This document shows positions 1,441 through 21,900 of a stretch of DNA of 22,885 nucleotides, piece after piece; within the stretch, counting starts at the first letter, position 1, and every line of letters begins with the position of its first letter. The notes under the pieces are model-generated. The model searched no databases and was not told the DNA's origin. It worked only from the letters and a program-made list of their open reading frames with translations. The DNA is taken from positions 1 to 22,885 of IMG/VR virus record IMGVR_UViG_3300020408_000041; one strand, given 5' to 3'. The position numbers and the translations under genes are program-made. The stretch comes from a virus.

Positions 1441-2012
1441 TTATGCTACCCCTGTCCCAGTATTATCACCTGCATAAATGATATAGTTGATTGCCATATA
1501 TGGATTCATAACATTCATTGGTTGGCCTACTGCTTGATTAGTTAGGATACCACCTGAAGTTGGATAAGCCTGGCCTGCCTGTGTACCTGTTGGTGCATCA
1601 TAAACAAGTCCTTGTGGATCATTTGGTGTACCTGTAATATCTCTTAATGTATAGTATTGATCTCCGCTTGGTCCTCTTAAATCGTGTTCGTGTTCAGGCA
1701 AGTTTGTAAGACTAATGTTTACATCTTGTGAACCATTAACGTTTCCTAATGTGTCTGCCGCTGAACTTGTTACACGGTTAGCACTTTCGCCACCCATGTT
1801 ATCTAGACCCATTGTCATTCTTCCTCTTAAATCAGGTAATGCAAATCTACCTGCTTGTACAAGTGTTTGGTCTTTGAAGTTATACTTGATAACATTAAAC
1901 AAGTTTTGATATTCAGCAATAAGCACTTCACTACCATCACAAAGTAACCAATCTTGTGGTGTTTCACTAATTAAACCACCAAATGGTGTAATCATTCCAA
2001 TTGGCAATGTAG
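1441..2012 (-). other. Phage tail collar domain region of the 684-aa fibre protein
   Basis: Codons about 495-684. Visible hallmarks in order: GMITPFGG, DWLLCDGSEV, a Y..L...I segment, GRFALPDLRGRMTMG, Gly/Asn-rich linker, LPEHEHDL, and a C-terminal NPYMAINYIIYAG. The order and spacing match the collar fold used at the tip of T4-type short fibres and many other fibres. The final hydrophobic strand is the usual C-terminal end of this domain. Confidence 0.9.
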
Positions 2013-3495: not shown

Positions 3496-3499
3496 CTAA

Positions 3500-4132: not shown

Positions 4133-4141
4133 TATTTATTT
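4133..4141 (-). promoter_or_regulatory. T4-type late promoter-like motif (AAATAAATA)
   Basis: Reading the minus strand, AAATAAATA overlaps the TAA stop of the giant gene and lies about 16-18 bases before the 205-aa gene. It contains ATAAATA, the core of the T4-family late promoter (TATAAATA in T4). An identical 9-mer lies upstream of the gp6-like gene, the other place in the window with a non-overlapping gap. The region is AT-rich, so a chance match is possible, and the mRNA leader would be only about 10 bases. Confidence 0.4.
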
Positions 4142-7100
4142 AGGTAACGCCACCTCTCCGTTTCGTATGAACCTAGCAATATCATTTTCCTGTAAATGTA
4201 GGGCAGTTCCCACGTCTGTCCAACGTTGACCAATGCGTCTAATCACAGTTATTTTAGTATTTATTGCCGGTGTATCAGTTAATGTAAGTGTAGATGTTAC
4301 TCCATCAACACTGAATTCAGCAGGTGATGTTGTATCACCCTCTGGACTATCAAGGTCTGTAAGCGGGTTGAATACAGATATTGCATTTTTGCGTAATCTT
4401 TTACCTGCTACGTATACCTCAAATTCGTTAACATTTTTTGGTATAAAGTCTAGTGTTACAGCATTTGTTGAGCCATCTGCTGTAAAGTTTTGTACCAATT
4501 GCTTGTCTTTGTAAGGCACAGTTTGTTTATTGCTTTGATCAAGCACTGGAGTACCTGATTTGTGTAATGTAGCAATACCTGTACCTAGTGTACCTCTTCT
4601 TAATTGTCTTAGCAAACCATCTTCTTTTAGATAATATTCAATACGTTCACCATTTATAAAGATAATACCTGGAATACTTCTTTCTTTGTTTGGCTCTGGT
4701 AAAGTATCTGAATTTGTTACACTAATATTAGTATCAAAATAATTTAAGTCTTTTGCTAGTTGATATGTTGTAACATCACCTAAACGTTTGAAATGATATC
4801 TGTTTAGCATATCTTTAAACTGACTGTAACCAAACTTAGGTATAGCAACAGGATTACTAAAGTGTATAACTTCTAATTCATCATCTGCGGCAATATCTAT
4901 TTCAACTCTTAAAGTTCTTCTATCTTCAAGCACACTATATTCTACACTTGGTGTTAACAATGTGCCATTTCTTGTTAACCAAACGTAATCTGTGTCAAGT
5001 GCTTTATCACGCAACTTGATAAATCCGTTGGTTAATTGATGGTATTCTACATAATCATCTGTGCCAACTGTTACAGTTGTAAATGTTTTAACTTTGTAAT
5101 TTTGTCTTTCAATTTGCAATGGATCATGGTTAGCAAAAGTATATACTCTAACTTTTTCACCACTTGTTGGTGCAGTATCTAAATGTATCTGTGTTGGTGT
5201 TTCAACATAAACATTATTACTGTCAAAGTAACCAAAGTCAAATTCGCCATGGTCAATAATGAAAACATCTAATGTATCACCAATCTGTCCTGTATCAACA
5301 AATAGTTCAACTGTATTATTAAATCTATTCCAACGATATGTTTGGTTAATAGTTTGTTCAACATTATTAATAAACACTTTTACAGTTTCTGCTGGAATAC
5401 TTGCTTGAGCAAACTGCCATTTAGTTACTTCGTATTCTCTAGTTGCACTAATTGTAAACTGTTCGTTGAAACCTGCTTTTAATATTTTATTACCAACTTG
5501 AACAATAGTATTATGTTGTAAAGGTTTTTTGTTGAACGGTGCCGCACCTAATGTAAATGCAGTTGTACAACCGTCACCTGTAAATTCATCTGTTGTTACT
5601 GAAGCAAAACTTTTTACTTCACTGTCGTAAATTACATACTGTATAATTGTACCTGGTTCTGGTGCTACTGATAATCTCAATAATGTTAAACCTTTGCTTT
5701 CATAACTAGCATCTGTTTCTGCCAATACAGCATCAATTGTTTCACCATCTTTAGTAATGTAGAAACTTAAATTATCTTTCCATTTTACAGATGTAACAAA
5801 TACTGAAGTACTTCCATCTCCTTCAAATGTATCACTATCTAAAATGTTTTCACCATTTGTACTCATTGTAATAATGTTAACAGGTTGTCCTGCTGTTAGT
5901 GTTACATCTTTTAATGTTAATTCTTTTGTTTGATAGTTAACACTCCATTTACTTGCGTCTAAAATATTTCCATTTGCTTTTACAAAAATATCTCGCTGAC
6001 TTGCAGGATAACTGTTTAACTTGAATGTGTAACTGCCTTCATATGTGTAGTTGTAATTTTGTATTACACTACCACCATCAACTGTTCTGTCATAAACTTT
6101 AATGTTTACACTATCAAGTAATTGTCCTGGAACTAATTCTTCTGGACCATGTGATGTAGTTGGCGATACAAAGTCATCACCATCTATTACAATTTCTTCT
6201 GCATTGATACCACGTGCATTTTGATATGCCATATCACCACCTGATAACAATGTATCATAAGCATCTGGATCAGGAATAAATGATCCATCACTTGAAGATT
6301 TTCTAATTATAATTACATCATTTGCTTTAGTTGGAATCTTATCATTGTCAACTAAGAAAGTAGTTTGTACTCCATCACCTGTAATAGGATTCATTACAGC
6401 ATTTGGATTTTCTGCAACACCTGTTGTACTACCATCGTAGTTTGGATCATCAAGTCTTACAAAACCTTTGGCTGGATTTGCACTATCTTTATAGTAAACA
6501 TTATATTGTACTCCGCTTTCTAGTGCTTTAGAAAGTGTCAATGATAGTGTACTTCCATCTAATTGGAATACTTCATCGTCATAGGTATTATCATATGAAT
6601 CATATGAAGTTGTGTAGTAAGGCTCATTACCCCAACCTGTTCCTGTACCAAAGTTGAAACTCTTAACTTCTACTCCACCATAATCTATACCATCTAATAA
6701 TTGTGCAACATCTTTTCCTAATTGTCCAGTTACTGGATTATAGAACAAATTAATTCTATCTTGTGCTTGTAACATATCGATTGCTTTTTTGTATGTTACT
6801 ACAATGCTAGAATTATTTGCAGGTGGATTATTAAATTCTATTCTACCTTTGTATCTAGTGTATGACTTGTCATTGTATGCAATATTACTAACTGCATAGT
6901 CACTTTTTAAAACTTCAATATTATCAACACTAATGCTAAATTCTGTGCTTCTTAAATCCATAGGATAAGTCAAATCGAAGATTGTTTTACTATTGTTACC
7001 TGTAAATGTTTCATTATTATTAAGTGTAGTAACAAAATATGTGCCTGTAACTCTATCAAATTTAACTCTTACGTGTACACTTCTTGCTTTACTATTACCT

Positions 7101-10100
7101 AGTACTGCTGAAGCCTTAGCCGCTATACCGTCAGTAGTAGATAAAGAACCATCTATTTCTACAAGCGGAGCACTTAAATAACCTTTACCTGTGTTTGTAA
7201 TTTCTATACTTACTACACTACCACCAACACCAAGTTTAGCAATACCTTTGGCACCTGTGCCGCCACCGCCAACAAATCTAACAACTGGTATATCTTGATA
7301 ACCTTTACCGCTGTTTGTTATGTTGACATTTGTAATTTCAAATCCTACATTATCTGCCCAATACTTGTTTGGATAGTTACTTGTTACACCACCTGTACTA
7401 ATAATAACATTATCTCTGACCTTCATAGCACCTGGCTCTATTCTTTGTGAAACATCATCATAAGCAGGCGGTACATCAAAGTCAGTTACAGTTGAATTTG
7501 TATCATCTTTTTTAGTATAGTTACTTAGGTATTCTCTAATTTTTGTTTTGTAAGGTTTAGTTTCTTTTACAAATTCTTCATAACTAGGTAAGTTATCATT
7601 TTGGAATGTAACTTTTTGTTCTAAATCTCCTGCATTGTGTTTTGCTTTAATGAAAGAAGTTTTAAACGCCCAATCAATATTTGCTTGTTCACTAAACGCA
7701 TATCTAACACTTGCAACAAATAATTTGTTGTATTCAACTTCTAATCCTTCAACAAATATATCATCTCTAATTGCTTCTAAGATTTTTCTTAATTCTATTG
7801 TTGGCTGATTGTCATAGAAACTAGTATCATAACTTAATCCATCAAAACCAACATTACTTGTTTTAGGATCGTATAGTGCAACTTTAAATTGTATAGTACC
7901 ATTTTGTCTACCAATGGTTGTGTAATTAGTAGTGTAATCAACAGCAACGTTGTCACTAGTTTTTTCTAATAACAACCAACCACCAGTTCCAACATTATTA
8001 ATTTTAATAATATCACCAATGCTGTCATTTAAACTTGTAAGTTGATATGATTCGTTTACAACTTCGTCTACTGTTGTAAATTGATTATATCCTTTTGCAT
8101 ACCAATCAGCATATTCCCACCATTCAGAAACATCATATGACTGTGTGCTAAATCTATTATATGCCCCAGTGGCTTTATTATATTCATACACTGACCATTT
8201 ATTAGAAACAGTACTATCGCTTTTTACTAAGGCGCTAAATGTTCTAACAGTAATTTGCGTTGTTGACGCATATTCTTTACCTGGATTTCTAATAGTTACT
8301 GTTGCTATTCCACCATTAGCATTTAATGTCATTTCAATCTGTGCATTTACACCGTCACCTATTTGTATAAATTCAATAGTAGGAACAGTTTTGTATCCGC
8401 TACCTGGATCAGTAATAGTAACGTCTGTAAGTCTACCATCAGTAAATGTTGGTGTAAGTATTGCTTGTTTTACTTTAGCAACACCAATGAATCCTAATTC
8501 TTCTATTGTATCAACAGCAATATCAAAACGTCTACTTAAAAGTGTAGGCTGTGGATCTTTATCTAATAATTTTGTAAAGTCTAATTCATCAACAATTAAG
8601 TTTTCTTTTAGAACTCTGTTTATTCTTTCAATAGTTTGTTTAAGTGCTTCAGGTCTATTTTTAAACATAGACTGCCTAGGTCGATTCAATACACCCCATT
8701 TTTGTTTTTCACTTAATTCAGGATCAGGTACAGGTCTATTCATACTGTCTGAGCCTATTAAACTATCATACCATTTACGTTCAATATCTTGATTTGGTTT
8801 ACTTGTTTTTAGTCCTTCACTAATCAACTGATATTCGTTGTGCAAGTCTACACTTTGATTATCTATTGTCCAGTAACGGAAATTAATTGCCTTCTTAGTT
8901 CCTTCTACAAGAGATTTACAATTATAAAGTCCAAATCTATCGTTACCATAAATTGCAACGAACTTATAGTTTTGTCCTGCAGGATCTTGAATTAATTGTG
9001 CAACATCAAATGCAGTTGTTTTTCTAAATGTAACTTGCGGTAAAACTTTTTTGTTTTTTACCCAATAATAATATTTGTTATAAAAGTTACCTGATACATT
9101 ATCGTATAATCTTTTAGTTACAAACGCGGCTGAACCATAAGCAGAAGTACCACTTATACCTTTTACTAATCCTTCTTCTGTATCAGCAGTTGCGTCCCAA
9201 CGTTCTGGAGTTAAGTCTGTTTCTACCCATTCATATACATCTACACTACTTCCTGTAAACATTTTATTGAAGTTTGCAGTATTGTAAATTATGTTACCTT
9301 GATAGTTATCGATCCATTTTACTTTACTAATATCCCACCATAATCTACCAACGTGTTCAGTGCCCCAATAATTTTCTGAGTCAACATTTAATCCGTTTGT
9401 TGCTGTTGTGTAAATTGCAGGATCATATGGTACTTTAAATCTTATTTCTTCATCGGCCGGTCCAGCAATTTTTCCTTGTACAGGGTCAATATAATCTAGT
9501 TGATTATTAAATCCAGTGCCATCTTTATTGTAAATGAATACGCCTTTAAATTTAGTTAGGTCAACTTGACTAATAGGTTCTCTTAAAGTTTCCCAAGGTA
9601 ATTTTAATCTATCACGTTTGAAATCAATTACTGTACCAATAAAGTTTTGTTCTGCGTTTACATTTAACTCAGGCATTGAAACATACACGTGATTATCTCT
9701 TGCAAGAATAAACTCACCAAATCTTTCTACATTTGGATTATTGTATGCAAATTTTTCTGCATATAACATTGAACCACCAACTAACTGATAAACAAAAACC
9801 TGTCCACTATCTTTATTAGTGTATTTGAATTGTGTTAAGTTATTATCAAAAGTTGTTGTAATACTATCAAACGTTGTAAAACTACTTAGGTCTCCACCTT
9901 GTGCAGAAACCATCAATGTACCTTTAGCAAAGTCTAATGCTTGACCAAATCTTTCTGCTACTGTATTATCTGGACTATACAGTAATTGATGTAATGTAAA
10001 CACATTATCTGTATTTTTATACAAATATACTTTACCGTTATCATTTGATTTTTCATCATCTAAAGGTGCACCTACTGCCAACCAGTCGCCGTCATCACTA

Positions 10101-13100
10101 ACACTTATTGCACTAGCAAATTTTGTATCTGGTGCTTGTACTCTAAAATCTGTATTATTGTTATCAAACTGAGTTGTATCTTGATCAAAGAAAGTGTTTA
10201 TTACAGCATCTGGTGTTGCAATAGTTTGATAAAATTCAAAATGTCCATCATTGTATCTGTATATACCTATCTGTGGATACTGATCTGTGTAGTCTGCTAC
10301 TGTAACTATTACGTCACCGTCTCTGCTTGTTGTAAACGGATGTGCAAAGTTTACCATAGTTGAACTACTATCAAATTCATTAAAGATTTGATCACCTGTT
10401 ACAGTTATGTTCAGATCATTTGGAATATATCCTATGTAATCTACACCTGTATTAAGCACTGACCAATTTGAATTAGCAAACGCACCTGCGGCCTGATTGG
10501 TTAAACTTCTAAATAATGATCCGTTATAAATTACTATTTCGTCTGTGTAATAAGGTTCATTGCTGTCAAATGCACCTCTAAAGTTTCTGTCTTGACCATT
10601 ATCCCATTCATATTCAGTTGTACCTTCAAAACCTTTTTTAACAAAATGTATTCTACCTGCATTAGTAGGTGTTGCATCTCCTGGAGAAGATACAAACAAT
10701 CTATACAATGTATCTTTTTTACAAAGTTCAATTTGATTGCCTAAGAATGCGTTATTGTGTCTTTGTAAGTTTACATAACCTTTATTAAATTTGTATTCAC
10801 CTGATCCTGTTTTATTATAAACAAAATACATACCTTCGTTTGTAAACGTACTTGCTGTACCTTCAGAGTCTGCAGGTAAATTATATAATTGCGTCCAGTC
10901 TTTGTTTAATGGATTAGGAATATTTGCAGATCTTGGTACACCTGTAACAGTTCTGTTTTTGTAAAACTGCATTTCAACTTCATTTCTAAAACTTGGAGAT
11001 GCAATTTGTAACAACGTACTATCGTTGTTTCTTACAACTATCATTTTACCTAAATAATTAGTTGTTAAATCTGTTGCTTCAATCCTACCACTTAATCTAT
11101 TAAATCCTAAACCTGTTACAATACTTAAATTACCAGTTGCATTAAAATTATTTCCATAACTAAATGTTCCTGTCATATTTTTAATGTATACTCTAGCACC
11201 TAATAAATTATCTTGTACAAATGCTACTTCACCAGTTGCCCCAGTAAAATCTTCAATTACAGTTTCACCAACCTGTGGAATAAATGGTTGTGAAGCCGGA
11301 GGAGCACTAAAGTTTGTGTAAGTAATATCAATAAATCCGTCCCATAAATCATAAACTGTATGTGGTTGATCTAAATAATCAAAACTTAAACCTATTGCAC
11401 TTGGATCCCATACTGTTGCAGGATCTCCGCCTAGTAATCTATTAATTTTAAATGTAAAATTATCTGCTACACTTAAATTATCTGTAACTACCTTTGGTGC
11501 TCTAACAAACCAATATGGTTGTAATTGTGGCATACCAAATGTGTCATAGTAACTTAGGTTACCTATTCTACCGCCTCTAGTTGGATTGTTAATATCTTGA
11601 TTAGCAGTATAAACATCATCCATTGTATTGCCATATACTTCTGCTGTTTTACTTTCAGCACTTGTTATATAATCTGCAATAACTAAATTAGGAATTGTAA
11701 TTTCTTTTGTTGCAGTAGTAAATGATTGTAAACCATCTATTACCCACCAACCACCAAATGTATCACTTGGGTTAGCAAAACTTACTTCCTCGTAAGTACC
11801 CATGCTTTCACTATTATATATTAAAGTGCCTGTAGGATCGAATTGGCCATTTACATCTTTAACATAAATTAATCCCTGACTTACATTATCAACTATGACT
11901 CTTTCAACTGTACCTATAGCAGTAGTTGTAGAAATAATATCCCCAGGTTGCGGTGTTCTTAACAAGTTATCTACAAAAAGAATATTGTCAATTTTTCCTG
12001 TGATAGTTTTAGTGCCTTCAAAATCATTTAGAGCAGGACCTGTTTGACCAAAAGGTAAAGTTCCGTTAGGATAATTTTGTGAATACTGATTCCATTGAAT
12101 ATCTATTTTATCACTTACTGCTGATCCAATGTATTGTACCCTTGGTGCTCTAATTAAGACATGAGTAGTAGCACCATCAAATTTATAATTACCTCTAATA
12201 GCATATACAGTAGTAGGATATCCTGTTGCATTATCATATGCGGCGTGTTCTACATCATGTGAAGTATAAAAACTGTTAAATGTGTATGTTCCAAGTGCCG
12301 CTTCAATATCATAATTTGCCTGCCAAATCTGCTCCTTGTATGACACAATATCTTTAGGTGCGTATGTGCTTGCCTGTGAATATGTTTCTACAAATTTAGT
12401 TTTTACATTACTTGCCGTAGGTGCACCTATTACAATAAACTCTGCATCTGCACTGATAGAAAGTGCCTTACCAAAACTACCATCACCTGTGTATAAATTT
12501 TGTGGCGGCTCTATAGTTTGAATATGAACATAACCAACTGTATCTGTATATCTTTTAAAAATGTAAACTTTGTTACCTTCAAAAGCACCTACACAAAGTA
12601 CGGTATTTCTTTCATCAGCGGCAATAACTTTACCAAACTCTTGTGCATTATCTCCTGCTTCTACATTAGAAATAATCTGTTGGCTTGTAAACTGTGGAGT
12701 ATTTTTAAGCACTAACCAATTTGAATTAGCATCTTTATCAACCCATAAAGTTTCTCCAACTTTTAAGTTTTGATTTGACAAAATAATATTTGCATTATCA
12801 AAGTCTGGTGCTTTAGCAGTTCTAAACTCTGTTATAAATCCGTTAGCAGTTTCTACTTCTTCTGTTTCGCCATTAGCATGACAGATAATATCTTTTAATT
12901 CTACACTTTTAACTTTGTAAAATTTTTCTGCGCCTGTTACGTCTACTAAACCTATAATTTCATCTACATCAAATCTTGCTTGTTCATTTAGTGTAATTAC
13001 AACATCTGTATCACGTTTTGCAACTGCTAAAACTCTGCTATCTGTTCTTACATACTTTAATACGTCCCAAGATAATCCTTTTTGTCCTACCCATATATAA

Positions 13101-16100
13101 TCACCAACATTTATGCTTGTAAGATCTAATGTTAAAATATCATTATATACAGCAACTTTAGTTTTTACATCTTGTTCATTTACATAACCAGCAGTAGTAT
13201 GAACATATTTTAACGTGCTACGTGTTGGAAATGGTTTATGATCATAATCTTTAGACTTTAAGTAAACTTCAAAAGGTCTTTGTCTATATACAAGATCTGT
13301 TTCTTGTCCTGTAGTTGTAGCAACAAGTTCAATAGGTTGTGGACTTAATCTAAACTTACTTTCGTCTAGTGTAAATTCTACTTCGTCAAAGGATTCGCTT
13401 GAACCATACTGTCCTAAACGTATTGCCCATTCTTCAAAAAATTCTAAACTATCTGTTTCACTGTTTGATAATGCATCAAACAATTTAGTTAAACTATTTT
13501 TTGTTCCTTTGTCTTGAATAAAGCCTTGATAAAATTTGTACTGTGATACATCATCAGTAATAATATTTTCTAAATACTTACGTTTTTGATAACCAATTAA
13601 ATGTTGTGCAATTTTTTGTTGTTGTGTATCAAAGTTGTCTGTATCTAAATCATAAAAATCACCAAATTGATTTGCTTTATAATCAAGGTTTGCAATTAAA
13701 CCACTCTGTGGACGTCTTTCTAATTTTTCCCATTCTTCGTTATTGAAAACATTAGTACCAGGTATCTTAACTTTTGCAACATAGAAAAATTCTTTATACT
13801 TAACTGTATCTCCAATAGCATAATCTTTATATGCTTCCCAAGTATTTGTATTTGCTTCATCATAGATAAATCCTGGAATATTAAATCCACCGTTCCAAGC
13901 ATCGGATCTATAACCTAAAACTTTTACTCTTTCTTGACGATAACCAGGCCCTGTATCATATACAACATCTTTGAATACAGTTGTGTTATCAATAATACAT
14001 ACGTGTTCCTTTTGTACTAAAGGAACTTTAATTGCAAATATACCATCTGCTGTATTTTTCGTTGTAAGTACAATTTTATTTTCATTACTTCTAAATACTT
14101 TCGCAAACTCTGGAAGTAATTTTTTACCGTCTGCTTTGAACAATGAATAATCATAATAACCATTAAATAGATCATCTGCAACATTATATTCTTTTTCTAA
14201 TACTAATTTATTTGCACCAGGACTTACAGTTATAACACTATCTGCTTTCCAGCCTTGTGTTGTCCAAAACATAAACTCTTTTGCACTAGTTGACCAATTT
14301 TCTACTAAATTAATATCTGGGTTAAAGTTTTCAAATACAAATCCTTGTGTTTTTAAGTATTCTCCATACCCTAATAAAAAGTCTACAACTTCTTGAATAG
14401 TTCTTAATGTTGTGCCATACAATAATTCTTCTGGTTCTTGATTAATACCTATGTTAAAGTTTTTACTAAAGACTGCGTTTCTTCCGCCAACAGTTGGAAG
14501 TTCTGGAAGTTTTTGAAAATTATCAACAACAAAGTCTGCTGTGCTTTCATGTGCAATCTTTGTAGTATAATAATCTTTACCAAATGATACTATTTGTCCA
14601 ACAGCATAAAATTTATTTGCTGACCAATCTACAAACGATTCACTTACGCCACCTATGTTTATTACAGGATCGTTAGCAAATCTAGTTGGTGTATAGTAAT
14701 TAAAGTACGGATTAGAATTATCATATCCTCTTAGAACAAATCCTTCTGCTTTTTTCTCAATAATAACTCCACTGTAACTTAACAATTGAGTAGTGGAACT
14801 AGTGTTTAAAAATATATCATAGTTTTCTTCTGGAACAAATACGTTACCTTCATTGAATGGTGTTCTAGAATCTAATATAAGTTTAAATTTATTTTTTGCA
14901 GTAAAGCCGCCAATTTTAAAACCAAGTTGATTAATTACACCTTTAAAATCTGTTTTGTATTTTTCGTAAACACCTAAGTTTTTAGACGCCATATACTCGT
15001 GAATATAATTTACTAAACCTGCTGTATAAATTCTTGTTTCATTTAAGATAGTGTTAGGATATACAATATCTGCAGGACGCATAGACTTACTTGTATCTTT
15101 GTAAACAACAAGTCCTGCCGCATTTCTAATTACTCTACTTCTATCCCAACCAAGTCCCATAATCTTACTAGGCTGTGTTAGTAACCAACCAACAATTAAA
15201 GAGAACGGATATTCTGAACTTCTACGCCAAGCAGTTTCAGTTGGAGATTGATCACCAAATCTAAAAGACGCATTAGTGTTTATACTTGTAAATTGTTTTG
15301 CATAATTACTGTCTAAAGGACTTAATAAATTTCCACCATCGTCTACAGGAATATGTGTAGTAAGTCCTGGACGTTTGTAATTTGCAACATACTGCACAGG
15401 TTTACCTGGCTCTGCAATTTTTCCTTGCTCTAAATCTTTCCAAAGAATTTTGTTTTCGCTAGTATAAGGTGCTGAGCCATATACAGTTTCCCACCACGTT
15501 GGTTTTATACTGAAACCAAGCATTTCCCAAGGATGTGTATGAGGACGATCAGTATCATAAGCATCTTTGTATACTGCTCTCCAATATCCTCTTGACTTGT
15601 TACCATTTGGAGTAAGTGTTGAAGCATAGTTAAATGTAAAACTATTACTTCTGTCATAGAAGTCATGATCTGTGTAATCTGGATTTCCTATAACTCTTAA
15701 CCAATCAACAAAGTCAGATATCATTGCTTTATCTAATGCCCAACCCATTATACCTGTTGATCTAAATTCACCTGACAGTAATTCATGTATGTTGACTAAA
15801 TTTTTATCGTACTGTACTTTAATATTATTGTATATTCTTTTTTCTAATTCTAATATTAAATCATCTCTGTAATCACCATATGCTTTAAATATACTTCCGT
15901 CGTGTCCTTGGATAACATCAACAGGTGTAACGTATGAATTATCTGTAAACTTTGTTGGAACAAATTTAGGATATAAACCTAGTTTTGTAGGAGTAGGTGG
16001 AATATAAGATCCTTCAGTACTATTGTACTCATATATTTTAATTTTGTCTCCAGCAACTAATTTCTTTGTAATCTTAACAAAACTTTCAAATCCAGTTTCG

Positions 16101-18928
16101 TAAATATAATCTTGCCCTTCGATTAAACATTGATCATTTACATAAACACCTACTGCTTCATTACCTAGTTCTCTTAAATTAAAGTTTTTACTCATACTCC
16201 AGTAACCTTGGTCTGGATCTACAACTGTGTGTTCTACAAGGTTATAAGTTCCGTGGCCTATCATATCTGAAAAATAGTAAGCCATGTCATTTGTTTTGTT
16301 TTTGTTTAATTCCTTTATGACTTTTTCAAAATGAACATTTAGTTGTCCATCAAAACCTAAAGTTTCAATAGTTTGAATAAACATTCTTTTAAACTTTGCA
16401 TATTCTCTACGAGAATATTTTAATGCTTTTATAATATTTGCTTTATCGTCTGTAATATGATATAAACTTAAATTTATTAAACCTGTATGCTGTACAAACT
16501 TATTACCATAAGGTGTTATGTTTCCTAAATCTCTTAGATTACTTGTACCAGGAAATTTTCCAATCCATTCATCGTGATTTGTAGTAATACTCTGCACGTG
16601 ATCATTAACTTCACCTAATGTAAATGAACTTATGTTTTCATTAGTTGGATTTCTTTCTAAGTTAATAGGAAATTCATAGTGCCCATTAGCATTTTTCCTT
16701 GTAGCACTTCTTGTTTTAATTACAAGTATATCTCCTTTTTTCAAAGGATTAATAAAATTAACAAAAGCAATACCATTTAATCTTAAAATTGTAAAGTCAA
16801 CTAGATCTTTTTGATGTACATCATTAACATATACTCTATACCAAAGGTCATTTAAGTCTCCGCTTCTATCATATACATCGATAGCAAAATCATTTGTTTG
16901 GGTATCAACAATATACTGCCTTGCAACTAATTGCTCACTAGGAACATAACCTTTTTCCCAAGGACCTACATAATCAAATGTAGTTCTATCTTTGTACTTT
17001 CTTAAAAGTCCTACGTCTGTACTTGCTGTCATAACATCGGTACCGCTTTGATACTGATATGTTTCGCTAGATATGTTGAAATCAAATACAATATCACCTG
17101 TATTTTCTAATGCTCTATAGGTTAAAGGAAATCCTAATTCAACATCATTTGCACCAGTACCTTTTCTATAACTGAAAAGTTTACTACCTTCAAATGTAGT
17201 GCTTGGATAATATGTTGTATTTGAAAAACTATAACCGCTTGAATCATATAGATCAAACATTGGTGTTTGGTTAATTGCCGTCTTAGGTTGACAAGATTTC
17301 CATGTAGTGCCGTTATACCACCATAAGTTACCTTGTTCTGTAAGACCTTTTCTAACCATTACAACTTCATTTTCTAATGGAGTAGTATCTGCTTCTTCAA
17401 CTAAACTAATTTGTCTTACGTTGTTATGTGTAATAAAGTTTACTTTATAAATTTTACCAGCAACCATGCTGTCTGTGTCTGCGGCAAAAAGAACTCTCAT
17501 ACCATGTACAACTTCAATGCCATCAATGTTATAGCCTATGGATCCTTCAACAGTTGACATAGCGTCTTTTGTAAATGTATCAATTAAATCAATATCTGCT
17601 TTTGCAACTGTACCGTAGTTGTAAAGTTTAATGTCAGCATCAAATTCTATAATAGGACGTTTGGCTCTACTTGCTTGATCAATCTCAGCAGTAATACCAT
17701 TAATAGATGCAGTAGTCTCAATTACATCTTTATGGAACCATCTGTTATATCTTGACCAACTGTTTAAGTTTTTACTTGCCTTGTTAATACAAATATAATC
17801 TTTTGCTTCTGCATAACTGTTTGCATTACTAAAAGGAAATCTATCAAAGTTTTCGCTATCAAACAAAACAGGTTTGTCAGTAGCATAAGATCCAGGTATT
17901 TGTAACTGGTTAGTATCTATAAGTGTAATCTCTTCTCCTACACCTTCTACATACCATTCACCTTTGCTATACTTTTCAGGTGTTACAGTTCCTTGAAAAT
18001 ATACTTTCATACCGTTGGACAATTTTTGCCCGTTGGACATAGTATAATTTTGTTTACCTATAATTTCTGCTTCTACATCTATTTCACTATTTTCTACAAC
18101 GTCATATATTTTTATAAGTCCACTTGCATTAATATCATTTCCGTTGACATAATATAATGTATCAGGTGCATTTAAATCAACCTCAAATGTAATTTTTCCT
18201 ACATCAGTTGTACCTGTACTATCATCTAATCCTGTTGTGTATAAAACTTCTGCATCTAAACTACGTGAAGTTCTAAATGTTAAAGGCATACCAGGAGCAT
18301 TTATATCGAATGTATAAGTTTGTCCTCTGTATAATTTTAATGTAGGATTCGATGTTAATCCGTCTGGAGTAAAAAGATAACTTTTGTTATCTATATTATC
18401 TTTAGACGTTACAGTGAATTCGCTTTCAATATCTTTTGCTTGGCCGGCAATACCTATACCAATAGGTCCATTTGGTAACCAATAATATTCTCTAAAGTTT
18501 GTAAACTTATCCCAATTAATTTTAGGTGACCAACTATAATATTCTTGTCTATTAAGAACATCAGCATTTTCAGTAAATCCGCCAAACGCATTTATTTGAT
18601 TTTTGTAATCATTATAGTCTTTGTAAAAATTAACGTTTGCTAATTCATCTTTTACAATTACTGCTGGCTCTAATTGATAATTTGTTCTATCCTCAGAAAC
18701 ATCATCTACGTAGGTATCGCTTTGGCTTCTTGCCTTAGCAATTCTTCTGCCATAGTAGGCACTGATCTTTTCTGCTACACCTGGATTTAATAATTGATCT
18801 AGTGTTGCACTTAAAAACTTTTTATTAGAATCTGTACGAAAGTATCTAGGTAGGTGGTCAGCACTTGATCTTTGTGCATTGTCACCTACTGGTAATGCTG
18901 ATTCGTTTTGGTTTTCATTATAAGCCAT
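4136..18928 (-). CDS. Giant baseplate-associated structural protein (4930 aa, multi-domain), at the gp7 position
   Basis: One uninterrupted frame of 4930 codons (roughly 540 kDa) begins MAYNENQNESALPVGD. Its ATG overlaps the stop of the gp6-like gene by one base (TAATG); the nearest purine-rich stretch, GGGAG, is 12 bases upstream, so coupling with gp6 is likely. Visible parts by residue: 1-190, an aromatic-rich opening with YYWLPNGP; 193-277, cupredoxin-like domain without ligands; 300-1430, unrecognised, with conserved-looking Trp/Tyr-rich stretches; CBM5/12-like segments near 1433-1475, 1693-1738, 2181-2213 and 2781-2826; FG-GAP-like blades near 2088-2178 and 2852-3106; a duplicated module near 2257-2376 and 2472-2605; G-x-G-Y repeat pairs near 3497-3564 and 3862-3927; F-x-G-D-G beta repeats about 3970-4900; an RGTLGTG module near 4722-4805; and the end ARFIRNGEVALPK. 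There is no signal peptide or transmembrane segment. T4 gp7 (about 1030 aa) is the wedge initiator between gp6 and gp8, so a gp7 role for part of this protein is inferred from synteny only. It is probably a fusion of wedge and adhesive parts. Confidence 0.93.
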   Translation of the reverse strand: MAYNENQNESALPVGDNAQRSSADHLPRYFRTDSNKKFLSATLDQLLNPGVAEKISAYYGRRIAKARSQSDTYVDDVSEDRTNYQLEPAVIVKDELANVNFYKDYNDYKNQINAFGGFTENADVLNRQEYYSWSPKINWDKFTNFREYYWLPNGPIGIGIAGQAKDIESEFTVTSKDNIDNKSYLFTPDGLTSNPTLKLYRGQTYTFDINAPGMPLTFRTSRSLDAEVLYTTGLDDSTGTTDVGKITFEVDLNAPDTLYYVNGNDINASGLIKIYDVVENSEIDVEAEIIGKQNYTMSNGQKLSNGMKVYFQGTVTPEKYSKGEWYVEGVGEEITLIDTNQLQIPGSYATDKPVLFDSENFDRFPFSNANSYAEAKDYICINKASKNLNSWSRYNRWFHKDVIETTASINGITAEIDQASRAKRPIIEFDADIKLYNYGTVAKADIDLIDTFTKDAMSTVEGSIGYNIDGIEVVHGMRVLFAADTDSMVAGKIYKVNFITHNNVRQISLVEEADTTPLENEVVMVRKGLTEQGNLWWYNGTTWKSCQPKTAINQTPMFDLYDSSGYSFSNTTYYPSTTFEGSKLFSYRKGTGANDVELGFPLTYRALENTGDIVFDFNISSETYQYQSGTDVMTASTDVGLLRKYKDRTTFDYVGPWEKGYVPSEQLVARQYIVDTQTNDFAIDVYDRSGDLNDLWYRVYVNDVHQKDLVDFTILRLNGIAFVNFINPLKKGDILVIKTRSATRKNANGHYEFPINLERNPTNENISSFTLGEVNDHVQSITTNHDEWIGKFPGTSNLRDLGNITPYGNKFVQHTGLINLSLYHITDDKANIIKALKYSRREYAKFKRMFIQTIETLGFDGQLNVHFEKVIKELNKNKTNDMAYYFSDMIGHGTYNLVEHTVVDPDQGYWSMSKNFNLRELGNEAVGVYVNDQCLIEGQDYIYETGFESFVKITKKLVAGDKIKIYEYNSTEGSYIPPTPTKLGLYPKFVPTKFTDNSYVTPVDVIQGHDGSIFKAYGDYRDDLILELEKRIYNNIKVQYDKNLVNIHELLSGEFRSTGIMGWALDKAMISDFVDWLRVIGNPDYTDHDFYDRSNSFTFNYASTLTPNGNKSRGYWRAVYKDAYDTDRPHTHPWEMLGFSIKPTWWETVYGSAPYTSENKILWKDLEQGKIAEPGKPVQYVANYKRPGLTTHIPVDDGGNLLSPLDSNYAKQFTSINTNASFRFGDQSPTETAWRRSSEYPFSLIVGWLLTQPSKIMGLGWDRSRVIRNAAGLVVYKDTSKSMRPADIVYPNTILNETRIYTAGLVNYIHEYMASKNLGVYEKYKTDFKGVINQLGFKIGGFTAKNKFKLILDSRTPFNEGNVFVPEENYDIFLNTSSTTQLLSYSGVIIEKKAEGFVLRGYDNSNPYFNYYTPTRFANDPVINIGGVSESFVDWSANKFYAVGQIVSFGKDYYTTKIAHESTADFVVDNFQKLPELPTVGGRNAVFSKNFNIGINQEPEELLYGTTLRTIQEVVDFLLGYGEYLKTQGFVFENFNPDINLVENWSTSAKEFMFWTTQGWKADSVITVSPGANKLVLEKEYNVADDLFNGYYDYSLFKADGKKLLPEFAKVFRSNENKIVLTTKNTADGIFAIKVPLVQKEHVCIIDNTTVFKDVVYDTGPGYRQERVKVLGYRSDAWNGGFNIPGFIYDEANTNTWEAYKDYAIGDTVKYKEFFYVAKVKIPGTNVFNNEEWEKLERRPQSGLIANLDYKANQFGDFYDLDTDNFDTQQQKIAQHLIGYQKRKYLENIITDDVSQYKFYQGFIQDKGTKNSLTKLFDALSNSETDSLEFFEEWAIRLGQYGSSESFDEVEFTLDESKFRLSPQPIELVATTTGQETDLVYRQRPFEVYLKSKDYDHKPFPTRSTLKYVHTTAGYVNEQDVKTKVAVYNDILTLDLTSINVGDYIWVGQKGLSWDVLKYVRTDSRVLAVAKRDTDVVITLNEQARFDVDEIIGLVDVTGAEKFYKVKSVELKDIICHANGETEEVETANGFITEFRTAKAPDFDNANIILSNQNLKVGETLWVDKDANSNWLVLKNTPQFTSQQIISNVEAGDNAQEFGKVIAADERNTVLCVGAFEGNKVYIFKRYTDTVGYVHIQTIEPPQNLYTGDGSFGKALSISADAEFIVIGAPTASNVKTKFVETYSQASTYAPKDIVSYKEQIWQANYDIEAALGTYTFNSFYTSHDVEHAAYDNATGYPTTVYAIRGNYKFDGATTHVLIRAPRVQYIGSAVSDKIDIQWNQYSQNYPNGTLPFGQTGPALNDFEGTKTITGKIDNILFVDNLLRTPQPGDIISTTTAIGTVERVIVDNVSQGLIYVKDVNGQFDPTGTLIYNSESMGTYEEVSFANPSDTFGGWWVIDGLQSFTTATKEITIPNLVIADYITSAESKTAEVYGNTMDDVYTANQDINNPTRGGRIGNLSYYDTFGMPQLQPYWFVRAPKVVTDNLSVADNFTFKINRLLGGDPATVWDPSAIGLSFDYLDQPHTVYDLWDGFIDITYTNFSAPPASQPFIPQVGETVIEDFTGATGEVAFVQDNLLGARVYIKNMTGTFSYGNNFNATGNLSIVTGLGFNRLSGRIEATDLTTNYLGKMIVVRNNDSTLLQIASPSFRNEVEMQFYKNRTVTGVPRSANIPNPLNKDWTQLYNLPADSEGTASTFTNEGMYFVYNKTGSGEYKFNKGYVNLQRHNNAFLGNQIELCKKDTLYRLFVSSPGDATPTNAGRIHFVKKGFEGTTEYEWDNGQDRNFRGAFDSNEPYYTDEIVIYNGSLFRSLTNQAAGAFANSNWSVLNTGVDYIGYIPNDLNITVTGDQIFNEFDSSSTMVNFAHPFTTSRDGDVIVTVADYTDQYPQIGIYRYNDGHFEFYQTIATPDAVINTFFDQDTTQFDNNNTDFRVQAPDTKFASAISVSDDGDWLAVGAPLDDEKSNDNGKVYLYKNTDNVFTLHQLLYSPDNTVAERFGQALDFAKGTLMVSAQGGDLSSFTTFDSITTTFDNNLTQFKYTNKDSGQVFVYQLVGGSMLYAEKFAYNNPNVERFGEFILARDNHVYVSMPELNVNAEQNFIGTVIDFKRDRLKLPWETLREPISQVDLTKFKGVFIYNKDGTGFNNQLDYIDPVQGKIAGPADEEIRFKVPYDPAIYTTATNGLNVDSENYWGTEHVGRLWWDISKVKWIDNYQGNIIYNTANFNKMFTGSSVDVYEWVETDLTPERWDATADTEEGLVKGISGTSAYGSAAFVTKRLYDNVSGNFYNKYYYWVKNKKVLPQVTFRKTTAFDVAQLIQDPAGQNYKFVAIYGNDRFGLYNCKSLVEGTKKAINFRYWTIDNQSVDLHNEYQLISEGLKTSKPNQDIERKWYDSLIGSDSMNRPVPDPELSEKQKWGVLNRPRQSMFKNRPEALKQTIERINRVLKENLIVDELDFTKLLDKDPQPTLLSRRFDIAVDTIEELGFIGVAKVKQAILTPTFTDGRLTDVTITDPGSGYKTVPTIEFIQIGDGVNAQIEMTLNANGGIATVTIRNPGKEYASTTQITVRTFSALVKSDSTVSNKWSVYEYNKATGAYNRFSTQSYDVSEWWEYADWYAKGYNQFTTVDEVVNESYQLTSLNDSIGDIIKINNVGTGGWLLLEKTSDNVAVDYTTNYTTIGRQNGTIQFKVALYDPKTSNVGFDGLSYDTSFYDNQPTIELRKILEAIRDDIFVEGLEVEYNKLFVASVRYAFSEQANIDWAFKTSFIKAKHNAGDLEQKVTFQNDNLPSYEEFVKETKPYKTKIREYLSNYTKKDDTNSTVTDFDVPPAYDDVSQRIEPGAMKVRDNVIISTGGVTSNYPNKYWADNVGFEITNVNITNSGKGYQDIPVVRFVGGGGTGAKGIAKLGVGGSVVSIEITNTGKGYLSAPLVEIDGSLSTTDGIAAKASAVLGNSKARSVHVRVKFDRVTGTYFVTTLNNNETFTGNNSKTIFDLTYPMDLRSTEFSISVDNIEVLKSDYAVSNIAYNDKSYTRYKGRIEFNNPPANNSSIVVTYKKAIDMLQAQDRINLFYNPVTGQLGKDVAQLLDGIDYGGVEVKSFNFGTGTGWGNEPYYTTSYDSYDNTYDDEVFQLDGSTLSLTLSKALESGVQYNVYYKDSANPAKGFVRLDDPNYDGSTTGVAENPNAVMNPITGDGVQTTFLVDNDKIPTKANDVIIIRKSSSDGSFIPDPDAYDTLLSGGDMAYQNARGINAEEIVIDGDDFVSPTTSHGPEELVPGQLLDSVNIKVYDRTVDGGSVIQNYNYTYEGSYTFKLNSYPASQRDIFVKANGNILDASKWSVNYQTKELTLKDVTLTAGQPVNIITMSTNGENILDSDTFEGDGSTSVFVTSVKWKDNLSFYITKDGETIDAVLAETDASYESKGLTLLRLSVAPEPGTIIQYVIYDSEVKSFASVTTDEFTGDGCTTAFTLGAAPFNKKPLQHNTIVQVGNKILKAGFNEQFTISATREYEVTKWQFAQASIPAETVKVFINNVEQTINQTYRWNRFNNTVELFVDTGQIGDTLDVFIIDHGEFDFGYFDSNNVYVETPTQIHLDTAPTSGEKVRVYTFANHDPLQIERQNYKVKTFTTVTVGTDDYVEYHQLTNGFIKLRDKALDTDYVWLTRNGTLLTPSVEYSVLEDRRTLRVEIDIAADDELEVIHFSNPVAIPKFGYSQFKDMLNRYHFKRLGDVTTYQLAKDLNYFDTNISVTNSDTLPEPNKERSIPGIIFINGERIEYYLKEDGLLRQLRRGTLGTGIATLHKSGTPVLDQSNKQTVPYKDKQLVQNFTADGSTNAVTLDFIPKNVNEFEVYVAGKRLRKNAISVFNPLTDLDSPEGDTTSPAEFSVDGVTSTLTLTDTPAINTKITVIRRIGQRWTDVGTALHLQENDIARFIRNGEVALPK
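4230..7020 (-). repeat. C-terminal series of F-x-G-D-G beta-sandwich-like repeats (giant protein, residues about 3970-4900)
   Basis: At least five related starts are visible: FTGNNSKTIFDLTYP (near 3971), ITGDGVQTTFLVDND (4178), FEGDGSTSVFVTSVK (4366), FTGDGCTTAFTLGAAP (4446) and FTADGSTNAVTLDFIP (4813). Several are followed by a strand such as EFEVYVAGKRL and a closing strand such as NTKITVIRRIG. Related modules occur in fibre and baseplate proteins of T4-like and T7-like phages. They were detected by eye, and further diverged copies near 4120 and 4290 are likely. Confidence 0.6.
4515..4765 (-). other. RGTLGTG module (giant protein, residues about 4722-4805)
   Basis: The order is LAKDLNYFDTNISV, IPGIIFINGERIEYYLKE, LLRQLRRGTLGTGIATLHKS, then GTPVLDQSN. 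This compact unit (I-x-G-E-R-I-x-Y, L-x-R-G-T-x-G-T, H-x-x-G-x-x-V-x-D) looks like a conserved module of marine T4-like virion proteins; this is from memory. Its biochemical role is unknown to me. It lies between two of the F-x-G-D-G repeats. Confidence 0.5.
7148..7343 (-). repeat. G-x-G-Y repeat pair 2 (giant protein, residues about 3862-3927)
   Basis: ITNVNITNSGKGYQDIPVVR, a GGGGTGAKG glycine loop, then VVSIEITNTGKGYLSAPLVE. The two halves are nearly identical in pattern and resemble pair 1, about 300 residues upstream. The Gly-rich loop between the halves is typical of this repeat. Confidence 0.65.
8238..8440 (-). repeat. G-x-G-Y repeat pair 1 (giant protein, residues about 3497-3564)
   Basis: LTDVTITDPGSGYKTVPTIE is followed by ATVTIRNPGKEYASTTQITV. 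Each half is a v-x-v-x-I-x-[dn]-x-G-x-x-Y unit with a following strand; the second half has E in place of the second Gly. The function is unknown; it is probably a beta-rich spacer. Confidence 0.6.
9612..10375 (-). other. FG-GAP-like beta-propeller blades, second part (giant protein, residues about 2852-3106)
   Basis: About four blades: FTTSRDGDVIVTVAD with IGIYRY; FASAISVSDDGDWLAVGAPL with GKVYLYKN; FGQALDFAKGTLMVSAQGG with GQVFVYQL; and FGEFILARDNHVYVSMPE with IGTVIDFKR. The SDDGDWLAVGAP blade is the textbook form. Added to the two blades near residue 2100 this gives about six, close to the seven usual in such propellers. Confidence 0.7.
10453..10587 (-). other. CBM5/12-like segment 4 (giant protein, residues about 2781-2826)
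   Basis: FRGAFDSNEPYYTDEIVIYN is followed by GSLFRSLTNQ and NSNWSVLNTG. It has the G.[FY]D...Y...[DE].V.Y.G...[YF]...N...W..L pattern shared by CBM5/12-like modules in phage fibres. It lies just before the second set of propeller blades. Confidence 0.55.
11113..11513 (-). repeat. Internal duplication copy B (giant protein, residues about 2472-2605)
   Basis: Begins WFVRAPKVVTDNLSVADNFT and ends QVGETVIEDFTGATGEVAFV, ARVYIKNMTGTFSYG, ATGN. The same elements as copy A occur in the same order at similar spacing. The copies have diverged too far to be repeats at the DNA level. Confidence 0.55.
11800..12160 (-). repeat. Internal duplication copy A (giant protein, residues about 2257-2376)
   Basis: Begins VLIRAPRVQYIGSAVSDKID and ends QPGDIISTTTAIGTVERVIV, GLIYVKDVNGQFDPTG, LIYN. 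It aligns by eye with copy B at 11113-11513 over both ends: RAP[RK]V near the start, an x-V-[SA]-D segment, then a Q-[PV]-G-[DE] segment and a [LA]-x-[YV]-[IY]-[VI]-K-[DN] segment near the end. Confidence 0.55.
12290..12388 (-). other. CBM5/12-like segment 3 (giant protein, residues about 2181-2213)
   Basis: ETYSQASTYAPKDIVSYKEQ is followed by IWQANYDIEA. It keeps the Y-x-x-x-D-x-V-x-Y core and an aromatic plus A but lacks a clear final W..L. It falls directly after the second FG-GAP-like blade, where the outer strand of that blade would be expected. Confidence 0.45.
12395..12665 (-). other. FG-GAP-like beta-propeller blades, first part (giant protein, residues about 2088-2178)
   Basis: Two blades are visible: FGKVIAADERNTVLCVGAFE with GNKVYIFKRY, and FGKALSISADAEFIVIGAPT. 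The F-G-x-x-[IL]-x-x-[DS]-x-[DE]-x-x-x-[IL]-x-[VI]-G-A signature followed by a G-x-V-Y-[IV]-[FY] strand is that of FG-GAP repeats. Two blades cannot close a propeller, which points to the second set downstream. Confidence 0.65.
13716..13850 (-). other. CBM5/12-like segment 2 (giant protein, residues about 1693-1738)
   Basis: NTWEAYKDYAIGDTVKYKEF is followed by FYVAKVKIPG and EEWEKLERR. It is the best of the four copies, with W, Y..GD.V.Y, Y.A and a final W..L all present. This pattern is that of CBM5/12 modules, which bind chitin or cellulose through surface aromatics. Confidence 0.6.
14505..14632 (-). other. CBM5/12-like segment 1 (giant protein, residues about 1433-1475)
   Basis: VDWSANKFYAVGQIVSFGKD is followed by YYTTKIAHES and FQKLPEL. 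The W-x4-Y-x-x-G-x-x-V-x-[FY]-x4-Y spacing matches the small carbohydrate-binding modules CBM5/12. The C-terminal Trp usual in the family is replaced by Phe. Confidence 0.5.
18099..18352 (-). other. Cupredoxin-like domain lacking metal ligands (giant protein, residues about 193-277)
   Basis: The segment starts TLKLYRGQTYTFDI, continues with PLTFRTS, a YTTGLDD...TTDVGKITFEV stretch, and ends APDTLYYVNGNDINASGLI. This order (rG-x-tY-x-F-d, then G-x-i-x-F-x-v, then P-x-x-L-Y-Y) is that of a cupredoxin-type beta-sandwich common in marine phage and bacterial proteins. In metal-binding members the last part reads Y-Y-C-x-x-H-x-x-M-x-G; here the Cys, His and Met places hold V, N/D and N, so copper binding is not expected. 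A structural or adhesive role is inferred. Confidence 0.55.
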
Positions 18929-21900
18929 TAGTAACCGCTACTCCCACTACCGCCAGAACCGCTTGATCCTGAACTACTACTGCTTGAACTTGTTGAACTG
19001 CTTGAACTTGTTGAACTGCTTGAACTTGTTGAACTGCTAGTTGAACTGCTTGTAGTTGTTGTAGTGGTTGTAGAGTTATATGATGTGCCACTTACAACAC
19101 CTTGTACAGTTGTTGAACTTGCAGTAACAACATCTCCAGTTGCTTTAATTCTGCTGGCTGTGATTGCGTCAATAACTTCAACGTCATCAACTGTTGCACC
19201 GCTGATGAAAATTTCATCACTTTCTGATTTAATTTCAAACAAACTTCCGAATGCCTGTGCTTCTTGTTTAGGCACAATAACCAAGTTTACAATATCAGGT
19301 GCAACTTGATTCATAATGTAAGTACTCAATTCTGCAAAATGGAATACATCACCAAAGTCCCAATTTTCAAGTGCAAAGAATTCATTGACTGCACTAACAA
19401 CCTGTGCTTTAATATCGTTGTCGTTTACAACTTCATTAGGATTTTTTACAATTTTAAATGTAGCCTGCATATCAGTTTCTGCTTTTGCTCCAAATAGTAT
19501 CTTATACTTAACTGGATGATAAATTACGTCATCACTGATTGATTTTATTTTGCTTATATCTGAACCGTAACTATTAAACAGTTGATCACTGCTTGGTGGT
19601 AAAGGTTTTGCAGATATAACATTGTCTAAATATAATCTAAAGTTTGTATCATAAGTTTTTGTTAATAGGTATACGTCATTAATGTTACTGCTACTTGGAT
19701 CTATTCTTGAATCATCATCAGCAGTATGTACATAATGGAATTTTAATTTGTCTCTACCAACATAAGCACGATAGTCTGTAGTTAATTCTAATAAACCAGC
19801 AGTCTTATTATACTTTTTAAATACTTCTGTTTGTACAATGTACCATATCTTACCATCAGCAAATCCACTCAAAGAGCCAATTGCACTTTCATTTGCAACA
19901 ACACTAATTGTGCCTGCACTATTATCAAAATATTTGTAGTCCTCAATATTATCTGTTGTAATGTATTTTTTAGTAAACACCCATTTTGATGTTGAATTTA
20001 CAGTAGGTGCTACAATTTGATCAAATGTTTGTGGATCATCTACAACCCCGTCATCATCTGTATCATAAAAACCAACTTCTACTTTTTTACTATCAATATA
20101 TCCTTCTGGATCTCTATATTCTTTTGTAACTTGTAAATTATGATCTATATTAAAAGGACTAGTACTGTCTGGTTTCTTATTAATAGATAGTACACTAATT
20201 TTGTCTTTTACAATTTGTCCTGTTCTGTTGTCATAAATTTTGTTTATGCTGTCATAAAAGAATCTAATTTCTTGACCGCTTTCAAACACATAACGTAAAC
20301 CTCTATATTCAATAGTATACTTTTCACCGTCTGTCTCAAATAACAATAACCAAGAACTATCTAACTGTTGATTTGTCACATCACCAGTTTTACCTGTTGA
20401 AAAGTCACCAATTACATCTAGGTTATTTTCTGTAACTAAACGCCATTGCCTGTTTTGGAAGTCATAACGTAAACCAAAAGTTTTGTAACTAAAAATTTGT
20501 TCAATAATTTGTGACTTCACATCATTTACAAGAGATTTTGCAAACTTAGGTCTAATTTCACTTAATATTGCTCCTGTTGGTATTTCATCATTTAACACAA
20601 TAGGTCCTGAACCATCTGTATTATTAGTTCTACCATCGCCATATACACTTATTACTTTACACCATTTGTAATCAACTGCATTGGCGTGATCAGTACTTCC
20701 TGTCATTAGTGTATGACTATTATCTGCCATAAAGTGTTGTCCTGACGGTGCAGTAAATTTAATCAAACTTCCTGTTTCAATAAATCTTAAACCACTGCCT
20801 GTAAATGTTCCAACTTGGTAAGCAGTTTTGTTACTATCTGTAATTGAACCTGTACTCATGTTTGTTGCGTTACTTACTTGATGAAACTCTGAAAGTAAAT
20901 CTGCAACAATAATTTTAGGAAACTTGTCATTGTAAAAATTAATTGTTTCTGTATTAGAAAGTATAGGTGTAATTACATTTTCAATAACACCTTCTACATC
21001 TGTTCTTGTATTAAATGTAAAACTAGTTTTGCGTACTACATCTTCTTTATATACAACACCGTCTGTACCAATTAAACTTGTATTAGAATATTTTCCTGTT
21101 GCATCTAATAAATCATAGTATCGTGAAATACCACTTGATGTTCTGTTAACACTTTTAACTTTAATAATTTCTTGACTTACAGCCAAAGGAGCAACTTGGT
21201 AATCTTCTCCTGTAACCATTCTGTTCTGAGTATAATAAGTTGAAGGTGCATTGTTTCTAATACTTTCGTTAGATTCACTTAAACTTGCATTGTCAATAGT
21301 ATATTTTAAACTAAATGTAATATTTAAATTTTCTTGATTGCCTGCTTTTGTTGTGTAAGGAATTGATGCTGTAATGTTTTGCATATCTGCAGGCACAACA
21401 TTATAACTGTCGTTTGCACTTGTTCTGTAATAAGTTCTAAATGATCCTTGCGGTAAATTTCCAAATGTTCCATCTGAGAAAATTAAATCAACTGCATCAC
21501 CTGTTCGTGTTAAAGCCGCATAAATGTTTCTTTGATCTTTTCTAGTTGAATTGTATACAATATTATTTCCTTCAACTGCATCAACTTTAGTCCATAGTTC
21601 ATCTTCAGCACCAACACTATTAAGTTTGTATAACCAAACATCAGCATTGTTAATATTAGATGCTTCAATTTCAATCTTTTGATTTGTGCTTGGTCTTGTT
21701 ACATTGAATTCGCCTTGATCTAAAATACCTTGTCTAAAGTGTACAAAAAATCCACTGTTACTAGAACCTGCACCTCTACCATCATCTCTATATAAGAATG
21801 CTAAACTATTTCCAGGTAATGGTGCTTCTTCACTAATAATACCATCTGAAACATCAGTTGATACTATTTGAAACTGTAAGTTTCTTCCATCAACATTTTT

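Follow-up and report, generated by a model that had tools for sequence, protein, structure and literature searches.

A 4930-codon gene behind gp6 in a relative of the jumbo phages belongs to a widespread family of giant virion proteins

Genes of the window and the giant reading frame

The DNA analyzed here (the window) covers all 22,885 bases of the virus record IMGVR_UViG_3300020408_000041. Genes are cut off at both of its ends, so the record covers part of a larger genome, and because no capsid gene was noticed in it, placement of the source phage rests on the baseplate genes. The following genes were recognized:

22554..22883, minus strand: gp25-like wedge protein, truncated by the record end (PF04965, phrog_261/43)
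18928..22506, minus strand: gp6-like baseplate wedge protein, 1192 aa (phrog_10646/219)
4136..18928, minus strand: giant gene for a predicted virion protein of the phrog_10938 family, 4930 codons (ORF, profile match, uninterrupted relatives)
3500..4117, minus strand: 205-aa protein, phrog_11259, directly after the giant gene (ORF and profile)
1441..3495, minus strand: 684-aa fiber-type protein with a Collar domain and weak, below-cutoff similarity to the T4 gp10 C terminus (profiles)

The baseplate-module setting proposed in a first-pass annotation of this DNA is borne out by the gp25 and gp6 profile matches just upstream of the giant gene, and the gp6 stop and the giant gene start share one base (TAATG). 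A perfect 18-bp tandem repeat of 3.3 copies (18979-19038) encodes part of the Ser/Thr/Gly-rich extreme C terminus of the gp6-like protein, shortly ahead of the giant gene.

The giant gene begins with ATG and its ORF translation contains zero internal stops, yielding a protein of 4930 aa with a computed mass of 555.1 kDa and pI of 4.85, or 4.8 times the length of T4 gp7 (1032 aa), in line with the roughly fivefold difference first reported. The base composition of the gene predicts one stop per ~12 codons, which puts the probability of 4930 open codons at ~10^-189; the other five frames across 4136..18928 carry 230-719 stops each. The order of GC content at the three codon positions (0.41-0.50, 0.30-0.42, and 0.13-0.24) is constant in 17 of 17 blocks of 300 codons. 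The single uninterrupted frame is thus confirmed. It had also been read as proof of one polypeptide under selection: the intact frame and the purifying selection along its length (see below) uphold the selection, but an open frame alone shows translation, not an uncleaved mature chain.

Intactness, selection, and gene order among relatives

Relatives were collected from viral contigs in two scans (at least 600 and at least 585 confirmed coding stretches, at least 80 loci each) and a third of 19 loci, and 172 viral loci, several sharing a contig, were compared. Close relatives do not divide the gene into several, the outcome that the first-pass annotation had set against its own reading: 169 of the 172 are uninterrupted across the matched stretch, the remainder being L044, where a stop falls at the contig end, L069, whose frame changes once, and L085, interrupted by a single in-frame TAG. 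The L085 stop, codon 378 of the matched frame, lies near position 11131, in the early part of a relative that is otherwise open. Complete frames were represented by 54 distinct DNA sequences, or 51 without these three loci, spanning 4,433-5,343 aa if translation is taken to begin at the first ATG downstream of the preceding stop, so that some lengths may be too high; therefore, the 4930-aa copy in the window is of ordinary size for its clade. Two other contigs are 99.9-100% identical to it over the 3884-3956 residues present. In six pairs of relatives from two lineages, the sole pairs within the chosen range of divergence, dN/dS was 0.039-0.112, and when one pair was cut into ten windows, nonsynonymous change was lower than synonymous change in all ten.

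That the frame is an assembly artefact, a chimera, or an unexpressed frame is already contradicted by these data, with 169 of 172 loci open, two nearly identical contigs, and dN/dS of 0.04-0.11 in relatives. Nothing in the window itself favors such an origin, for which only the three interrupted relatives and the broken record of phage SD-6_S16 (below) speak, and its probability is negligible.

Viral contigs are rich in homologs of the giant gene, whose products in jumbo phages are very large virion proteins. Of eight contigs of relatives tested, seven carry a major capsid gene of T4 type; one such gene was searched and is 65-70% identical to its best 25 listed records, all related jumbo phages.

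Gene order is strongly conserved. Of 144 viral loci that could be tested, 143 have a gp6 match ending at most 1.5 kb upstream of the giant gene; in the other, L054, the gp6 match extends ~28 nt into the giant gene's match. Likewise, of 49 viral loci that could be tested, 45 have a homolog of the 205-aa protein no more than 200 nt downstream; in L165, L171, and L182 it was not found within that distance at E 1e-5. Among seven isolates examined, the giant gene is directly behind gp6 in six. The exception, SCTP-2 (L006, 8606-29397), has its gp6 homolog ~92 kb from the giant gene, and there the giant gene follows a different giant frame, ~3096 codons long. The first-pass annotation had described the position as that of gp7 in T4, after genes 25 and 6; the gene does follow gp6, but T4 gene 25 is no neighbor of gp6 or gp7, and the order 25-6-7 is found in cyanophages, P-SSM2 among them. 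In the 595-kb uncultured phage LR756511 (L187, 19500-21353), the first long frame after a weak gp6 match has only 617 codons, a hint that giants in this slot are not universal among phages with the largest genomes.

Homologs in isolated jumbo phages and evidence from virions

A tblastn search with residues 1-933 returned 57 records at E 1e-5, and one with residues 970-1943 returned 60 at E 1, nearly all of them 284-490 kb long, with two short ones of 86 and 110 kb. Single-frame homologs are present in the isolates Phosso (4555 aa), Atu_ph07 (4449 aa), PA5oct (3857 aa), SCTP-2 (3807 aa), Vibrio 2.275.O (3771 aa), CBB (3340 aa), and RaK2 (3326 aa). These proteins of 3326-4555 aa are shorter than the window copy and 23-38% identical to it in matching stretches; its 1900-3100 lobe and C-terminal fifth match them poorly. 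The window protein matches the phrog_10938 profile with E 0 and 1041.7 bits, slices doing so within residues 1-1970 and 3070-3970. Its members RaK2 ORF070w, CBB_236, PA5oct gp355, and Atu_ph07 gp180 are, like the window gene, single giant frames behind gp6. The family is already present in PHROGs as "virion structural protein"; PHROGs classes it as head and packaging, although the gene sits in a baseplate module. No account of its function was found in a literature search that covered few subscription papers and no bioRxiv preprints. The window gene is thus an intact member of a widespread, little-studied family of giant virion proteins.

Two isolate records depart from a simple single-gene annotation. 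In K64-1 (NC_027399; L109, 6727-16692), a split gene was considered and rejected: a 3321-aa frame is open in the DNA, so the small RefSeq genes on both strands are an annotation artefact. In Salmonella phage SD-6_S16 (L110, 6718-16581), the homologous gene lies in at least three frames, through sequencing error or decay.

The earlier designation as a virion gene agrees with data from isolated relatives. CBB_236 (gp236, 3340 aa) was detected in virions by mass spectrometry with 21 unique peptides and 7.72% coverage (Table 4, PMC5259590), and the PA5oct gp355 record bears the note ESI-MS/MS. For phAPEC6, a published table lists gp245 (381.88 kDa, 17 peptides, 7.6%) beside a 131-kDa wedge protein (Table 1, PMC7247149); from its size and order, gp245 appears to be a homolog of the giant. 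By kinship with the CBB protein, whose virion presence was shown by others, the window's giant is a predicted virion protein.

These data also bear on whether the giant is a polyprotein, made as one chain from which a protease of the phage or its host releases several structural proteins. Its large size and modular build would suit such processing, as would the published coverage of 7.6-7.7%, which, in the tables available, does not place both ends on one band. The same tables, however, give one protein, and collinearity is tight over 48 relatives outside residues 1900-3100, so that proteolytic division is quite improbable.

Anatomy of the giant protein

An alignment and tree of 49 rows (the window protein and 48 complete relatives, with L044, L069, and L085 excluded) showed the window protein to be collinear with its relatives nearly throughout. 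The best-conserved 100-residue blocks are 1701-1800 (0.69 identity), 3701-3800 (0.66), and 1801-1900 (0.64); weak blocks are 1901-3100 (0.32-0.46) and, within the C-terminal fifth, 4301-4700 (0.34-0.42). The features delineated, all on the minus strand, are as follows:

18449..18871, minus strand: conserved N-terminal block, residues 20-160, with short helical segments in the model (alignment and model)
18092..18433, minus strand: cupredoxin-fold domain without Cys or His, residues 166-279 (model, fold search)
16022..16249, minus strand: adaptor-type beta domain, residues 894-969 (model fold search)
14495..14629, minus strand: CBM5/12 chitin-binding-type module, residues 1434-1478 (Pfam CBM_5_12 1.1e-07, fold search)
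13388..13678, minus strand: helical stretch, residues 1751-1847, with motif FYQGFIQDKGT (1799), inside a best-conserved block (model, low confidence)
9629..13231, minus strand: poorly conserved lobe, residues 1900-3100 (alignment, FG-GAP_2 match)
11129..12331, minus strand: cassette, residues 2200-2600 (alignment, tree)
7439..9631, minus strand: second conserved core, residues 3100-3450 and 3600-3830, with motif NIDWAFK at 3750 (alignment)
7151..8431, minus strand: two GSGY-type repeats, residues 3500-3562 and 3865-3926 (iterated profile)

Iterated module profiles, applied to 17 proteins without filtering and therefore liable to overreach, extended several of these assignments: four adaptor-type copies were found in all (also at residues 688-739, 4507-4556, and 4640-4690), as were four CBM5/12-type copies (also at 1696-1740, 2184-2219, and 2788-2827), the second of which is weak in Pfam (E 0.03). 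The GSGY-type repeats match many PHROGs of wedge, fiber, and virion proteins. Within the variable lobe, Pfam places FG-GAP_2 at residues 2941-2970 (1.6e-07), and the iterated profiles add copies at 2904-2936 and 2985-3045. Motifs at 2097, 2152, and 3070 that resemble FG-GAP were picked by eye, and a complete beta-propeller was not shown. The cassette at residues 2200-2600 is missing from 19 of 48 relatives, a pattern that a FastTree phylogeny of the cores explains with two changes; swapping of the cassette among phages was rejected on that ground. Near the N terminus, the C-terminal portion of the gp9-type connector profile phrog_677 aligns with residues 171-277 (5.1e-12). Against the sequences of solved structures, the whole protein gave no match at E<=1, and a profile of residues 900-1960 gave four at E<=10, all chitinases or chitin deacetylase (best 0.0052).

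Two structure models were built from alignments in which near-copies of >88% identity were excluded (104 rows kept each, 91 and 92 used). Model 1, residues 760-1900, has pLDDT 83.5 and pTM 0.75, and model 2, residues 1-890, has pLDDT 85.0 and pTM 0.79. The adaptor-type domain (residues 135-210 of model 1) aligns with CBA120 TSP4 (Z 8.8, rmsd 1.8, 64 aligned), the T7 gp17 N terminus (Z 6.0, rmsd 3.4, 70 aligned), and 5iv5_AC, a 602-residue T4 baseplate chain that we take, from its length, to be gp10 (Z 6.3, rmsd 4.2, 79 aligned). Residues ~673-717 of model 1 align with chitin-binding modules in ten rows (Z 6.4-7.2, rmsd 1.2-2.0, 43-46 aligned); Z values under 8 may reflect a common arrangement, and the CBM assignment is also backed by the sequence match. 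A chitin-binding-type fold is likewise listed for the Milano baseplate. Foldseek found nothing for model 1 in the PDB at 1e-3 and, in BFVD, the Atu_ph07 homolog at 7.6e-62. In model 2, residues 166-279 adopt a cupredoxin fold (e.g., 6yzy, Z 10.4, rmsd 2.3, 99 aligned; Foldseek best 6.4e-5), in which a copper site is unlikely because the domain has zero Cys or His. The helical stretch at 1751-1847 is mostly below pLDDT 50 in model 1, as we would expect where folding depends on contact with a partner.

Tests of descent from gp7

T4 gp7 is a wedge protein with a 119.2-kDa monomer present in six copies, according to PMC3004832, and criteria for recognizing gp7 by its core bundle and trifurcation with two gp6 chains are given in PMC10457771. 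The profile comparison with gp7 that the first-pass annotation had recommended gave no homology, whether by pairwise search, slices, phrog_964, or Pfam Gp7 domains; Gp7_helical, Gp7_5th, and Gp7_6th had no match in the window protein. The T4 gp7 profile phrog_964 detects T4 gp7 and P-SSM2 gp7 (8e-5), and in eight related records (seven isolates and one 185-kb contig) it matched nothing at E<=1, a loose cutoff because 1 of 14 unrelated control genomes also matched. By the same profile, those eight records hold no other gp7 candidate, though a diverged one would escape it. PF09684 (P2 gpI type) was unmatched in 10 records, which is uninformative because T4 itself also misses. Trifurcation and N-terminal slices of the window protein and its relatives, searched against PHROGs and Pfam, matched significantly only phrog_10938, other matches being weak (best 0.0038). 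In the Foldseek and VIA lists for the two models no gp7 chain was recognized; single domains fill these lists, so this result excludes nothing.

One local resemblance was found. The FYQGFIQDKGT motif (1799) weakly resembles the gp7 KGT/trifurcation motif, FYSTKG in T4 and FYMSKG in cyanophages. Profile comparison by hhalign aligned this same place, but with probabilities of 1.3-5.9% against cyanophage gp7; deepening the alignment brought no improvement (1.7%), T4 gp7 gave 0.3%, and a domain near the C terminus scored 20% against the same cyanophage target, above the KGT stretch. Since there is no profile link, the KGT match is weak, and the C-terminal domain scores higher, the giant was not filed as gp7. 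Its descent from gp7 could not be shown; its role is probably like that of gp7.

Comparison with other baseplates

The gene had been presented as though it stood alone, but giants in the gp7 slot occur in both jumbo phages and cyanophages. The cyanophage giant gp7, annotated as "baseplate wedge initiator" (phrog_2885), has 5195 aa in P-SSM2, and a 4878-aa protein in Sf-CH8 is labeled wedge subunit. These proteins share with the window giant the slot (25-6-7), a similar size, and GSGY-type repeats, but no full-length or core similarity was found: significant matches of the window protein to phrog_2885 are confined to the repeat region 3485-3663, and none was found along the N-terminal core. In addition, the T4-like KGT motif of cyanophage gp7 lies near residue 192 (hhalign probability 92.7%), whereas the window protein has a weak counterpart at 1799. 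Gene structure varies among cyanophages: S-SSM7 (L191, 62-19153) has two gp7-labeled genes, of 3007 and 3001 aa, separated by one of 340 aa, and P-SSM2 (L189, 106-15693) has the one 5195-aa gp7, pointing to a split or a fusion.

T4 gp7 and the window giant both follow gp6, and the giant is probably also a multidomain wedge scaffold, although the two have no detectable sequence similarity and T4 gp7 is much shorter. Going by published descriptions, the gp7 equivalents of simple baseplates, XM1 gp17 and A-1(L) gp32, presumably dock on a gp6-type pair, as the window giant may; XM1 gp17 has 242 residues, in contrast to 4930.

Proposed role and significance

The gene, its conservation, its place, and its module content are established here. 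Taken together, they are probably best explained by a modular scaffold of the outer wedge with a gp7-like function, in a phage related to Rak2-like/Atu_ph07-type jumbo phages. The gp7-like role is suggested by the slot behind gp6, the cyanophage giants in the same slot, and the lack of a T4-type gp7 match in the eight related records. It is also favored by the mass spectrometry of virions of relatives, by the resemblance of the adaptor domain to a T4 baseplate chain and to phage fiber adaptors, by the CBM5/12 module, and by the peak of conservation at residues 1701-1900 and 3701-3800. The giant would dock on the gp6 ring via its conserved helical cores (~1751-1847 and 3690-3800) and take the place of gp7 as a large scaffold of the outer wedge; adaptor domains around the core may seat fibers, and the chitin-binding-type modules and FG-GAP lobe may face the cell surface and bind glycans. 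Counting against a gp7-like wedge protein are the missing profile link, the weak KGT match in a low-confidence part of the model, the higher score of the C-terminal domain, the distance of ~92 kb to gp6 in SCTP-2, and the PHROGs head-and-packaging class.

The giant might instead be a host-contact or fiber-holding protein of gp9/gp10 type that stands behind gp6 by chance, the gp7 core being unrecognized elsewhere or lost. Its recognized modules, of connector, adaptor, and carbohydrate-binding types, fit that description, as does the failure to find a gp7 fold or profile. However, slices of the conserved cores (970-1970) significantly match phrog_10938 alone and no fiber family, the slot behind gp6 is fixed, and no other gp7 candidate was matched, though a diverged one would escape, making chance placement of such a protein rather unlikely.

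Gigantism in the gp7 slot could have at least two origins, a tentative proposal: enlargement of gp7 in cyanophages, and a jumbo-phage protein whose descent from gp7 is erased or absent. The slot would then be a platform that accumulates sugar-binding, propeller, and adaptor modules, with the ~400-residue cassette in the FG-GAP lobe gained or lost only twice. If this double origin is true, tasks divided among separate proteins in other myoviruses fall to a wedge protein. Should six copies be assumed, as for wedge proteins, 6 x 555 kDa amounts to 3.3 MDa as a matter of arithmetic only. Were the giant the outer wedge, the dimensions and form of the tail tip would be set by it, and one chain may hold much of the host-contact surface.
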